This document shows positions 39,545 to 43,513 of a stretch of 64,000 nucleotides of DNA, piece after piece (position 1 is the first letter of the stretch; each line of letters starts with the position of its first letter). The stretch covers positions 3,844,001 to 3,908,000 of the forward strand of contig NZ_VFOZ01000001.1 in NCBI RefSeq assembly GCF_006716425.1. Direction: 5' to 3'. This DNA is from Actinoallomurus bryophytorum. GTDB taxonomy: Bacteria; Actinomycetota; Actinomycetes; Streptosporangiales; Streptosporangiaceae. Position numbers and translations under genes: made by a program. Below the pieces are notes generated by a model, which was not told the origin of the DNA, made no database searches, and saw nothing but the letters and a program-made list of their open reading frames with translations.

Positions 39545-39600
39545 GAGGTCTCCGGTGTTCGGATTCGTCTGGTCGATGAACCCTGAACACCGGAGACCTC
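39545..39600. terminator. Bidirectional terminator
   Basis: A perfect 16-bp stem (GAGGTCTCCGGTGTTC / GAACACCGGAGACCTC) with a 24-nt loop sits between the methyltransferase and the convergent ABC operon. Confidence 0.85.
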
Positions 39601-39639: not shown

Positions 39640-40356
39640 CTAGTCGGTGCCGGTGATGGCCAGGGTGCGCAGTTTCCAGCCGGCGAACACGACGCCGAGG
39701 ATGGTCAGGACGATCAGCAGCGGGACCGCGGTGGAGCCGTGGATCTCGGAGGTGACCGCGGTCGCGTTGGTGCCCAGGTCGGTGACCGAGATGGCCCACT
39801 GCCGGATCGACAGCGTCCTGGCGCCCGGGGCGTACCTGGCGAGGAGGTTCTCCCACACCAGGATGTAGATCAGCCCGATCGTCACGGCGAACCGGCTGAG
39901 CACCGCGATGGCGATGAACAGCGCGCAGTACGCGATGCCGCCCACGAGGGCACCGAGGGCGAAGCCCGTCGCCAGGCCCGCCGTCAGGCCGTTCAGGATC
40001 ACGGCGGAGATGAAGATCGGCACCACACCGAAGCCGATCACCAGGGCGACCGCGACCAGGTACTTGGTGGTCGAGATGATCGGGCGCGCGATCGGCTTGG
40101 TCATGAGGTACATGATCTGGCCGTCGTCGATCTCCGGGGCGATCACTCCGGTGCCGGCGAGCAGGGCCAGCAGCGGCAGCAGCGCGTCCAGGCCGAACTT
40201 TGTCAGCAGCCCCGTCGCGGTGTCCAGGTCGTTGTAGCCGGTGAGCCGGATGATGATGCTGAGCAGCAGCAGGACGGCCGGCAGGAGGAAGAGCAGCAAC
40301 GCCCGCCGCCGTCCGAGCATGCCGCGGAACGTGATGTACGCGATGGTGGGGTTCAT
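39640..40356 (-). CDS. ABC-2 type transporter permease
   Basis: 238 aa with about six membrane helices. The first is LLLFLLPAVLLLLSIII; IAPEIDDGQIMYLMTKPIAR is the ABC-2 permease signature. It should pair with the ATPase at 41680-42591, but a tnpB element now separates them by 1.3 kb. The ATG has only a weak ribosome-binding site, so it was probably translated by coupling or readthrough. Expression may be lowered since the insertion. Confidence 0.88.
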   Translation of the reverse strand: MNPTIAYITFRGMLGRRRALLLFLLPAVLLLLSIIIRLTGYNDLDTATGLLTKFGLDALLPLLALLAGTGVIAPEIDDGQIMYLMTKPIARPIISTTKYLVAVALVIGFGVVPIFISAVILNGLTAGLATGFALGALVGGIAYCALFIAIAVLSRFAVTIGLIYILVWENLLARYAPGARTLSIRQWAISVTDLGTNATAVTSEIHGSTAVPLLIVLTILGVVFAGWKLRTLAITGTD

Positions 40357-40420
40357 CGGCTGGGCGGCGTGAGGACTCCGGCCGTCAGATCGGGGAGGAA
40401 ACGCCGCTCCCTCCTCTTAA

Positions 40421-41683
40421 TGTCGGTGGTGGTCAATAGCGTGTTCGCATGCGGTTCCGGCTCCAGCCCACGCACACCCAAGAGCAGGTGTTGCTGGAGC
40501 ATTGCGCACAGGCCCGTTTCATGTGGAATCTTGCGGTGGAACAGCATGCGTCCTGGCGTCCGGGACGGGCGGGTGCACCGGGCTATGGGGAGCATTCTCG
40601 CCAGCTGACCGAAGCCAGGAAGGCATTCGGGTGGCTGGCCGCGGGATCGCAGACGGTGCAACAGCAGGCGCTGCGGGACTTCGCCCAGGCCATGTTCCAT
40701 TTCTTCGCCGGGACGCACCGGCGGCCGACGTGGCGTAAGGCGGATCGGCATGAAGGGTTCCGCATCGTCGGGCGGCGTGGCCGCCATTGGGATGTGCGTC
40801 GTCTGTCGCGAAAGATGGGCGAGGTGCGGGTTCCCAAGGTGGGCTGGGTGCGGTTCCGCTGGTCCCGCATGGTTCCCGATGAGGTCAAGTCGCTCCGGGT
40901 GACCAGGGACCGGGCGGGGCGCCGGCATATCGCGTTCGCATTGATCCCACCATCGATGACCGGACCGGGCACCGGTGAGGTTGTGGGAGTGGACCGTGGT
41001 GTGACCGTTTCGGCTGCGCTGTCGACCGGCGAGCTGTTGTCGGTACCCGGTCTGCGCGACGGTGAGGCGAAGCGTCTGCTGCGGCTCCAGCGGAGGCTGG
41101 CTCGTGCGAAGCCGGGATCGAACCGCCGAGAGCGTGTCAAGACCGCGATCGGCCGGTTGAAGAGCCGTGAGACCGATCGGCGTACGGACTGGGCGGAGAA
41201 GACCTCCACTGATCTGGCCCGCCGCTTCGACACAGTCCGCGTCGAAGATCTGAAGATCAAGACCATGGTGCGTTCGGCCCGTGGCACCGTTGAGGTGCCG
41301 GGGAGGAACGTGCGGGCCAAGGCGGGACCGAACCGGTCCATCCACGCAGCCGGGTGGGGGCGGCTGGTGATGCGGCTGGAGGACAAGGCCCCGGGCCGGG
41401 CGGAGAGGATCGATCCCGCATACACGTCCCAGATCTGCAACGCCTGCGGGCACTGCGCAGCGGAAAGCCGTGAGAGCCAAGCGGTCTTTCGCTGTCGCGC
41501 CTGCGGGCATGCCGATCACGCGGATGTGAACGCGGCCAAGAACATCGCCGTCGGGCGGACGGTGACCGCGCGGGGAGGCCGGCCGTTGGGCGGGCCCGTG
41601 AACCGCGAACCTCAACTCGTTCCCTCCTCGGCGTAGGACATCGGGTTGGAATCCCCCGCTTTCAGGCGGTGGGAGGACGTCAA
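40421..41683 (+). mobile_element. tnpB-only IS200/IS605-type element
   Basis: Boundaries are inferred. The left end follows TTAA (40417-40420). The right end is the typical IS605-type hairpin (GGAATCCCCCGC, 6-nt loop, GCGGTGGGAGGACG) ending TCAA at 41680-41683. The element holds one gene, tnpB, and no Y1 transposase, so it would have to be moved in trans. It lies opposite to the interrupted ABC operon. Joining the flanks restores CCTCTTAAGAGG and a TAA stop for the ATPase. Confidence 0.75.
40449..41636 (+). CDS. tnpB: TnpB, RNA-guided RuvC-like nuclease of IS200/IS605 elements
   Basis: 395 aa. The N-terminal helix-turn-helix (QAREMWNLA-like: EHCAQARFMWNLAVEQ) and WED/REC region come first. 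RuvC-I is VGVDRGVTVSAAL, RuvC-II VRVEDLKIKTMV, and RuvC-III DHADVNAAKNIA. Two CxxC pairs (CNAC, CRAC) form the zinc finger. All three catalytic acids are present, so the nuclease may be active. TnpB cuts DNA using a guide RNA made from the element's right end. Full length with no frameshift. Confidence 0.92.
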   Translation: MRFRLQPTHTQEQVLLEHCAQARFMWNLAVEQHASWRPGRAGAPGYGEHSRQLTEARKAFGWLAAGSQTVQQQALRDFAQAMFHFFAGTHRRPTWRKADRHEGFRIVGRRGRHWDVRRLSRKMGEVRVPKVGWVRFRWSRMVPDEVKSLRVTRDRAGRRHIAFALIPPSMTGPGTGEVVGVDRGVTVSAALSTGELLSVPGLRDGEAKRLLRLQRRLARAKPGSNRRERVKTAIGRLKSRETDRRTDWAEKTSTDLARRFDTVRVEDLKIKTMVRSARGTVEVPGRNVRAKAGPNRSIHAAGWGRLVMRLEDKAPGRAERIDPAYTSQICNACGHCAAESRESQAVFRCRACGHADHADVNAAKNIAVGRTVTARGGRPLGGPVNREPQLVPSSA

Positions 41684-41703
41684 GAGGCCACCAAGTAGGA
41701 GAA
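41560..41703 (+). ncRNA. Predicted TnpB guide RNA (omega/reRNA)
   Basis: In known elements this RNA covers the 3' end of tnpB and the right-end hairpin, then runs 16-20 nt into flanking DNA as the guide. Here the hairpin is at 41649-41678, the end TCAA at 41683, and the guide would be about 41684-41703, inside the 3' end of the ATPase gene. The 5' limit is a guess. Confidence 0.4.
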
Positions 41704-42591
41704 GACGCTTTCGAGGGATTCGTCGGCCGGGGAGACCTCGAGCAGCCGGATGTCGGCCGTGCGGGCCGCCTGGGGGAGGAGCGAGGTGAAACGCAGGAAG
41801 TCGACCGCCTCGACCTGCAGACCGGTCGAGGTCAGCTCGACGCCTCGTGTCGAGTCGTCGGCGATCAGCACGGCCGCCAGGCGGCGGTCGTCGCTAGAGC
41901 GGATGGCGAACATGTGCGGCCGGTCGGTCATCAGCCGCCGGATGGCGCGGAAGTCGCCGGACGCGGCGTGGCGGCCGGCGATGATGACCTCGATGTGGTG
42001 CGCGAGCCGCTCGACCTCTTCGAGGATGTGCGAGCTGAACAGCACCGTACGGCCCTCGGCGGCCATCTTGCGGATCAGGTCCATCAGCTGGAGTCGCTGA
42101 CGGGGGTCCATTCCGTTGAACGGCTCGTCGAGCAGCAGCACCGGTGGATCGTGCACGAGTGCCGAGGCCATCTTGATGCGCTGCTTCATCCCCTTGGAGT
42201 ACGTGCCGATGGCGCGGTCCGCCGCGGCGGCCATCTCGACCATGCCGAGGGCGCGTTCGGCCGCCGCGTCGGGGTCGGACAGCTTGTGCAGTTTGGCCAT
42301 CGAGCGGACGAACTGCCGTCCGCTGAGGAAGTCGTACGCCGCCTCCCGCTCGGGCACCAGGCCGATGTGCCGGTACACCGAGGGGTTCTTCCAGATCCGC
42401 TGTCCGTCGATGCCGACCTGACCGTTGGAGGGGGCGAGGAAGCCGCCCATCATGTGGATGAGCGTGGACTTGCCGGCGCCGTTGGGGCCGAGCAGGCCGG
42501 TGACGCCCGGCCCGACGGTCATCGTCACGCCGTTGACGGCGACCACGTTGCCGTACCACCGGGAGACATCCCGGAGTTCGAGGACACTCAC
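41680..42591 (-). CDS. ABC transporter ATP-binding protein, second of operon
   Basis: 303 aa. Walker A is GPNGAGKS, the signature is YSKGMKQ, Walker B VLLLDEP, with SSHILEEV after. It pairs with permease 39640-40356. The last codons are GTG GCC TCT TGA; the TGA is provided by the right end of the tnpB element. The pre-insertion stop would have been TAA at the same codon, so the protein is unchanged. It starts 31 nt after the upstream permease. Confidence 0.93.
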   Translation of the reverse strand: MSVLELRDVSRWYGNVVAVNGVTMTVGPGVTGLLGPNGAGKSTLIHMMGGFLAPSNGQVGIDGQRIWKNPSVYRHIGLVPEREAAYDFLSGRQFVRSMAKLHKLSDPDAAAERALGMVEMAAAADRAIGTYSKGMKQRIKMASALVHDPPVLLLDEPFNGMDPRQRLQLMDLIRKMAAEGRTVLFSSHILEEVERLAHHIEVIIAGRHAASGDFRAIRRLMTDRPHMFAIRSSDDRRLAAVLIADDSTRGVELTSTGLQVEAVDFLRFTSLLPQAARTADIRLLEVSPADESLESVFSYLVAS

Positions 42592-42622: not shown

Positions 42623-43513
42623 TCATTTGGAGCCCGCCTTCCGGAACCGCAGGTAGAGGAGGGCCAGCGAGCCGGCCACGATGGCCACGCACGTGAGCGC
42701 GAACACCGCTCCGCCGAGACCGGCGGGCGGGGGCTCCGCGGAGGAGTGCTTGACGCGCAGCGCCCACACCTGCACCCCGTCCACCAGGTCGAAGGGGGTG
42801 AAGATGCCGGCCCACCGGGCGAGGGTGAACTTGGTCTGGTCCTCGGCGATGCCCTGCATGGCCCCCACCGCGGCGGTGCTGACCAGGTAGACCGCCATCA
42901 CGGCGGTCACGCCCAGGCCGCGGCGCGGGGTGAAGGCCGCCACGAGCAGGCCGATCGCGGCCAGCACCATCGCCAGGATCAGGCAGCCGCCGAGGGCGGC
43001 CGCGTAATGCAGCGCGTGGGTGCCCAGATGCTTCTGCTGGGTGGCGAGCGCGCCGATGAACAGGATCGTGACCGGGGCGGCCAGGAGGATCATCAGCGCC
43101 GTGGCGAGCGCGGCGAACTTGGCCAGCACGTAGTCCAGGCGGGACAGCTGGCGTGAGAAGTACAGCGGCAGGACGTGGAAGCGCAGGTCACGCGAGGCCA
43201 CCACGGGCGACTGCGAGGCCAGGAAGATCGCGATCAGCGGCTGGAGATAGATCGCGTACGACTCGTAGCGGATCAGGTTGATCGCCTGGCCGGCCCCGAT
43301 CGAGGAGGCCAGTGCCGTGACCGCGACGCTGATCGCCGCGGGGAGCAGCATAATCGCGAAGAGCAGGAACGGCATGATCTTGGATTTGAGGGGCCGTCCG
43401 AGCCCGTACACGGCACGCAGATTGTGCAGGTACAGGGAGCGGATGGCGTACGGGCGGCCGAGACGCGGGCCGTCGTAGTGCCGGTAGCCGATGTCGTGGA
43501 TGACGCTCGTCAT
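42623..43513 (-). CDS. ABC transporter permease
   Basis: 296 aa with about six membrane helices. It starts MTSVIHDIGYRHYDGPRLGR, a beginning common to ABC-2-like permeases of this type. QSPVVASRDLRFHVLPLYFS is a cytosolic loop. It overlaps the upstream ATPase gene by 4 nt (ATGA), so the two are a translationally coupled pair. Transport direction is probably export; the substrate is unknown. Confidence 0.88.
   Translation of the reverse strand: MTSVIHDIGYRHYDGPRLGRPYAIRSLYLHNLRAVYGLGRPLKSKIMPFLLFAIMLLPAAISVAVTALASSIGAGQAINLIRYESYAIYLQPLIAIFLASQSPVVASRDLRFHVLPLYFSRQLSRLDYVLAKFAALATALMILLAAPVTILFIGALATQQKHLGTHALHYAAALGGCLILAMVLAAIGLLVAAFTPRRGLGVTAVMAVYLVSTAAVGAMQGIAEDQTKFTLARWAGIFTPFDLVDGVQVWALRVKHSSAEPPPAGLGGAVFALTCVAIVAGSLALLYLRFRKAGSK

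Follow-up and report, generated by a model that had tools for sequence, protein, structure and literature searches.

About half of the examined tnpB transposon copies in two bacterial families sit at stop codons

Results

The window analysed here, 64,000 nucleotides of the Actinoallomurus bryophytorum genome (9.47 Mb; GC 0.70 in sampled stretches), contains an ABC operon on the minus strand that is interrupted by a transposon. The operon includes an ABC transporter ATPase gene, recognised by its open reading frame (ORF) and a profile match (41680..42591), and an ABC-2-like permease gene (39640..40356; both Pfam matches below the Pfam cut-off). Between them, on the plus strand, lies a 1327-bp element (40357..41683) with an intact tnpB ORF of 395 amino acids (40449..41636), identified by translation and profile matches. 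The original prediction had a tnpB element landing in the stop codon of the ATPase gene, and both the ORFs and an empty site in the closest congener (genome G006) bear this out. Elsewhere in the same operon and orientation, a second ATGA stop/start overlap (43510-43513) is free of any element. An inverted repeat with 16-nt arms, GAGGTCTCCGGTGTTC ... GAACACCGGAGACCTC, was seen by eye at 39545-39600, between the permease gene and a methyltransferase-like ORF that was also named by eye; it could be a terminator.

Alignments of the window with long copies, found both in its own genome and in congeners, run from 40353 to 41683 or 41684. Together with the G006 empty site, TTCAT|GAGG, they place a TCAT target at 40353..40356, retained beside the left end of the element, and a right end TCAA at 41680..41683. 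Comparing copies was a check proposed for the element ends; it upheld the right end and displaced the left. The string CCTCTTAA (40413..40420), supposed to be left flank, lies 56 bp inside the element, whose true left end is 60 bp further left. The right flank GAGGCC, beginning at 41684 after TCAA, and the present end of the ATPase gene, GCC TCT TGA, are as described.

Within the element, a putative left-end guide tetranucleotide (40372..40375) stands just 5' of a subterminal palindrome (40376..40397) that comparison of copies shows to be imperfect here; the last guide base is A, opposite the T of TCAT. The right end carries GAAT (41649..41652), letter for letter the right guide (GR) of IS608, and a predicted hairpin (41652..41674). 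The left-end hairpin is clear in many copies of the family; in the window copy neither end folds better than shuffled sequence. Beyond TCAA, positions 41684..41703 would form the guide region of a right-end RNA, as predicted from the ISDra2 reRNA anatomy in the available part of PMC8612924. It lies opposite the end of the ATPase gene, in antisense orientation to its 3' part. An Rfam search of 40300-41800 gave no match up to E 1.

The window protein matches the NCBIfam guided_TnpB profile with 219.8 bits (cut-off 100) and, in the PDB, TnpB 8bf8 (E 5e-24), which we take to be the ISDra2 protein. Residues D182, E266 and D359, presumably the RuvC catalytic residues, align with the conserved D, E and D of a designed nuclease (PDB 9yyg), and a zinc ribbon is present. 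The protein thus appears to be a guided TnpB with candidate RuvC residues in place. TldRs are nuclease-dead TnpB repressors that have lost the RuvC catalytic residues; a TldR identity was rejected here on the presence of all three candidates.

The element is filed as IS1341-type because neither it nor its own genome has a detectable Y1 transposase gene (tnpA), in a search whose control was positive in 5 of 14 known genomes. None was detected in the congener G002, and 19 of 80 relatives have one. At two loci in relatives (L143 in G012 and L138 in G025), and probably at a third (L141 in G036), a Y1 transposase accompanies a tnpB ORF that is divergent, next to a right end resembling that of this family; these are candidate helpers.

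By these features the element is an IS1341-type member of the known IS200/IS605 group, inserted antisense to the ABC operon. As in the IS1341 group, tnpB alone lies between the two ends; the right end combines TCAA, a GAAT guide and the predicted hairpin, and insertion took place 3' of a fixed short target with no target duplication at the empty sites of copies L001 and L039. IS608 of Helicobacter pylori, in the available part of PMC5934647, carries tnpA, targets TTAC with guide AAAG, and has the right cleavage site TCAA with guide GAAT. The present family resembles it in inserting 3' of a tetranucleotide kept in the left flank, in its TCAA and GAAT, and in a left guide 5' of a palindrome that reads the target. 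It differs in its targets (TCAT and TCAC), in guides such as GAGA or GATG, in having no tnpA, and in having about half of its copies at stops. In a survey of IS605, IS607 and IS1341 elements (PMC9956272), 16 of 39 likewise had TCAA as their motif for right cleavage; in the available text of that survey the term "stop codon" does not occur and no such link is drawn. ISDra2 of Deinococcus shares membership of the TnpB family, but its target or TAM is TTGAT (available part of PMC8612924), whereas here the predicted one is presumably TCAT.

Comparison with relatives that have an empty site, another check that had been proposed, confirmed insertion at the stop codon and contradicted the suggested target. 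The flanking operon was recovered in six congeners. In G006 the site reads ...GGATTCAT|GAGGACACC, which on the minus strand is ...GTG TCC TC ATGA ATCCC: here Ser-TCA and TGA close the ATPase gene, and the permease gene starts at the same ATGA. The window target, 40353-40356, is likewise ATGA on the minus strand, a TGA stop overlapping an ATG start once the site is emptied. Junctions in the other congeners read TCATGA (G003), a GTGA overlap (G001 and G005) or TGATG with a one-base overlap (G002 and G007). Joining the window flanks gives GCC TC ATGA AC, from which we infer an ancestral GCC TCA TGA whose ATGA was common to the permease start. Insertion would then have changed Ser-TCA-TGA to Ser-TCT-TGA, the new TGA coming from the right end, which reads TTGA on the minus strand, and would have left both the protein (Ala-Ser-stop) and the permease's ATGA as they were.

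The ideas that the element end supplies today's TGA and that the ATPase is unchanged therefore hold, the second by a different route from the one proposed. That route, insertion into a palindromic TTAA site carrying a TAA stop, has in its favour that its strings do occur in the window. Against it, the copies align further left, and the G006 site contains neither CCTCTTAA nor a palindrome and has a TCA TGA end with the same overlap rather than TAA. The G006 site rules this reading out, and we give it practically no credence.

Two further copies could be compared with congeners. For L039, a 340-bp remnant, TCAT stands exactly at the junction in six of six matching congeners (seven searched besides the own genome; a second G003 match, L372, left out). 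For L002, congeners support a start codon; the overlap call is less sure because their upstream gene seems to end earlier. A search for the empty site of L319, from a second bacterial family described below, gave partial matches only.

A simple rule can be read straight from these sequences. Since the letters TCA occur in the target as well as in the right end, landing antisense on a TGA restores TTGA in frame: a last codon NNA or NNG becomes NNT, the TGA is kept, and any ATG or GTG start within the target remains with the downstream gene. Synonymous outcomes at the last codon are no commoner than in the background (30 of 43 against 86 of 107), and the notion that stop copies preserve the last amino acid above chance found no support in these counts.

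Two left targets predominate among relatives: TCAT, whose reverse complement is ATGA, and TCAC (GTGA). TCAT directly precedes the element in the 27 left ends whose alignment reaches the first query base, partly by construction. Family-wide, TCAT was read in 19 and TCAC in 52 of 93 left ends, and no target was found in 22 by a script that required TCA followed by C or T. Two possible deviants, L242 in G366 (TTAC) and L042 in the own genome, G000 (TCAG), may represent other targets or mutated ones. Right ends are more uniform: among 124 copies, 117 have TCAA, six CCAA and one TCAG (in the first copy set, TCAG in L044 and CCAA in L057), and 105 have GAAT within their last 48 nt.

Across 98 left ends, the nucleotide immediately 5' of the left palindrome covaries with base four of the target, being G in 46 of 52 with TCAC and A in 33 of 46 with TCAT. 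Among left-end columns it has the highest mutual information with the target (0.417), with the next columns at 0.357 and 0.339. This pattern is what IS608 leads one to expect, and suggests that the left guide base reads the fourth target base. The covariation is in part confounded with lineage, and other left-end columns come close; A is nonetheless found in seven of eight TCAT left ends on a TCAC-type backbone (L180, L201, L203, L207, L208, L209 and L233; not L214). In the second family (n = 33) the pairs are TCAC-G 13, TCAT-A 12, TCAT-G 3 and TCAT-T 1, with four unread. Three copies, L040, L052 and L056 (G000, G003 and G004), have closely similar 25-nt left flanks, and their alignment stops short of the right end; they are perhaps one old inherited insertion, and L052 alone has a start codon called at the target.

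To place the copies relative to genes we used 131 copies with a right end from congeners and the same bacterial family, of which flank comparison left 124 independent (seven merged for shared flanks, some on partial similarity only). Seven left-end-only copies lie outside the 131; a start codon was called at four of them. The 80 family regions were hand-picked from listed matches reaching the right end, with at least G286:C17 left aside. A pattern search gave 34 matches, 30 of which were given loci; four of the 17 in G002 have no locus of their own, one of these (C351) being already counted as L077. Copies in G002 were found partly by this exact pattern and most others by alignment, and the like-for-like comparison is the one within the single pattern search. 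A genome scan among known genomes gave two loci only. Genes were called on reconstructed empty sites with a purpose-written, small codon-based gene finder in place of a standard annotator, and the TCA of the target was assumed where the left end was unseen. The background comprised 400 kb of the own genome plus the window minus the element. Its 2246 TCAT sites fall inside genes (1740), between genes (381), at starts (68), at stop/start overlaps (30) or at stops (27); for its 3934 TCAC sites the corresponding counts are 3183, 637, 47, 15 and 52.

Against this background the copies are concentrated at stops. Outside G002, the right end falls on the TGA of an antisense gene in 53 of 108 independent copies, compared with 124 of 6180 background TCAT and TCAC sites. 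Where the left target was also seen the proportion is 43 of 82. Split by target, the 36 two-ended TCAT copies comprise 20 at overlaps, two at stops, five at starts, seven intergenic and two inside genes; the 46 TCAC copies comprise six, 15, four, 13 and eight, respectively.

The pattern recurs in a second bacterial family, that of Frankia gtarii. Forty regions were picked from the matches, leaving aside for example G557:C1:1448454 and G519:C173; after exclusion of L334, which comes from a third bacterial family, 39 regions gave 37 independent copies. Twenty-one of the 37 are at stops, against 87 of 4237 sites in their own background with a retrained finder. The F. gtarii host belongs to a different family from the window host. 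Its copy (L079) encodes a TnpB 63% identical to that of the window and has TCAT on the left and TCAA on the right, and a stop was called at its right end. L079 and L329 (G511; same junction) are one copy, already within the 37. Across the two bacterial families, about half of the examined copies sit at stop codons.

Could the home-made gene finder or the choice of copies have produced this? Starts and stops were called by script, the overlap called at L002 looks like a start site in congeners, and the hand-picking of regions and the assumed TCA noted above could both bias the count. Yet the same finder yields the low background frequency, the enrichment persists among copies with an observed target, L001 and L039 are borne out by their empty sites, and the second family repeats it with a retrained model. 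Moving the junction out of frame, moreover, leaves 0 to 6 of 108 copies at stops (3 and 0 of 37 in the second family). We consider an artefact very unlikely. In-frame moves keep 50 to 53 of 108 because the test itself puts a stop there; the control thus speaks to frame, while the TCA in the target sets the place.

Sparing the upstream protein need not spare the operon. The insertion had been called benign. The evidence bears this out for the ATPase protein and not for the operon: 1.33 kb now separates the ATPase stop from the permease start, and most Shine-Dalgarno sequences disappear in such insertions. Among 36 copies at starts or overlaps, 14 had a Shine-Dalgarno score of at least 1 before insertion and three after, with 148 of 335 background gene starts reaching that score. 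The possibility that insertion donates a new Shine-Dalgarno to the downstream gene mostly fails on the same counts. Because the window permease has none before or after insertion, it probably relied on coupling that is now broken.

Why are so many copies at stops? The best explanation, and in our judgement probably the correct one, is survival of harmless insertions after largely gene-blind insertion. A Y1 transposase acting in trans would insert the element at TCAT and TCAC with little regard to genes, and selection would purge the majority, leaving mainly insertions at stop codons and stop/start overlaps, which would be tolerated because the upstream protein is spared. Copies at stops would then persist, since the gene now depends on their right end for its stop codon.

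The congener G002 is informative here. It has 17 pattern-matched right ends, and for ten the distance to the start of a contig is no more than 430 bp. None of its 16 independent copies is at a stop (Fisher p 6.7e-5 against the others), and in eight of 16 the right flank is inside a called gene; within the single pattern search, ten of 17 copies from other congeners are at stops against none of 13 from G002. This favours survival over directed insertion. That the G002 copies are recent is only partly borne out: eight of 16 have a nearest relative of at least 97% identity, over short alignments, and the median identity of the last 110 bp is 0.91. No contrast like that of G002 was seen elsewhere.

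Two further counts favour survival and a locking-in of the right end. Copies with a broken tnpB are at stops in 13 of 17 cases and intact ones in 30 of 65 (p 0.031). The CCAA right end, a mutation that would lose the stop, is found in none of 53 stop copies and in six of 71 others (p 0.037). Other results count against survival. The share at stops varies with nearest-neighbour identity at one-sided p 0.011, but at p 0.29 without G002, and in the second family it does not clearly rise with divergence (3/5, 4/8, 14/24). Four of eight copies outside G002 with a relative of at least 97% identity are already at stops, intergenic copies are scarcer than one would expect under simple neutrality, the base after the target differs from background (see below), and no Y1 transposase was detected in the own genome or in G002.

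Some of these observations would fit directed insertion, in which the transposition complex or a host factor prefers TCAT and TCAC at stops and stop/start overlaps, for instance if that strand is exposed as single-stranded DNA more often at such places or if an adjacent base has an influence. The excess of overlap over intergenic sites among two-ended TCAT copies (20 and 7 of 36, against 30 and 381 of 2246), the enrichment among intact-ORF copies and the recent-looking copies already at stops all speak for it. The base after the target also departs from background: G 0.41, C 0.27, T 0.19 and A 0.12 in the 124 copies, against G 0.33, C 0.54, T 0.07 and A 0.06. That departure, however, is also found in the 71 non-stop copies (G 0.41, C 0.38), no longer motif was seen by eye beyond the next base, and G002 has its copies away from stops, half with the right flank inside genes. 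We regard directed insertion as unlikely to be the main cause.

Homing offers another route. If TnpB cuts empty alleles, it would spread copies at sites with a target and flanks conserved from one strain to another, and operon stop/start junctions, being conserved and harmless, would accumulate elements much as homing introns do at conserved sites. The window TnpB keeps its candidate RuvC residues, and homing would explain why stops exceed intergenic sites; published work puts forward cleavage of donor joints by TnpB (PMC8612924) and reports that TnpB drives insertion sequences in plasmids (PMC11870625), as far as the available parts of those papers go. On the other side, copies with a broken tnpB are no rarer at stops than intact ones, only three copy pairs clearly share the same site from the first base on, and G006 already has a different sequence where the window copy has its guide region. 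As the principal explanation homing seems improbable to us. Survival of harmless insertions remains our preferred account, to which homing onto conserved junctions, or some targeting, may contribute.

Discussion

A concentration of IS200/IS605 or tnpB elements at stop codons or stop/start overlaps was not found among the titles and abstract openings listed for open-licence papers. It is conceivable, though we lean against it, that the shared TCA is an adaptation to harmlessness, in which targets settled on the reverse complements of stop/start junctions (ATGA and GTGA) and the right end on a sequence that rebuilds TGA, with operon junctions as a safe harbour.

The rule that emerges is a simple account of how a compact transposon can inhabit gene-dense genomes and still leave the gene at its insertion site unbroken. 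It explains where about half of the examined tnpB copies lie, and it ties cleavage sites read by guides, a detail of mechanism, to long-term survival. It also provides a countable test for other IS200/IS605 elements and for the annotation of gene starts beside them. By the same letters, any TTAN or TCAN target combined with a TCAA right end would rebuild a stop (TAA or TGA becoming TGA); if this is true, stop codons would be a general refuge of the IS200/IS605 superfamily.
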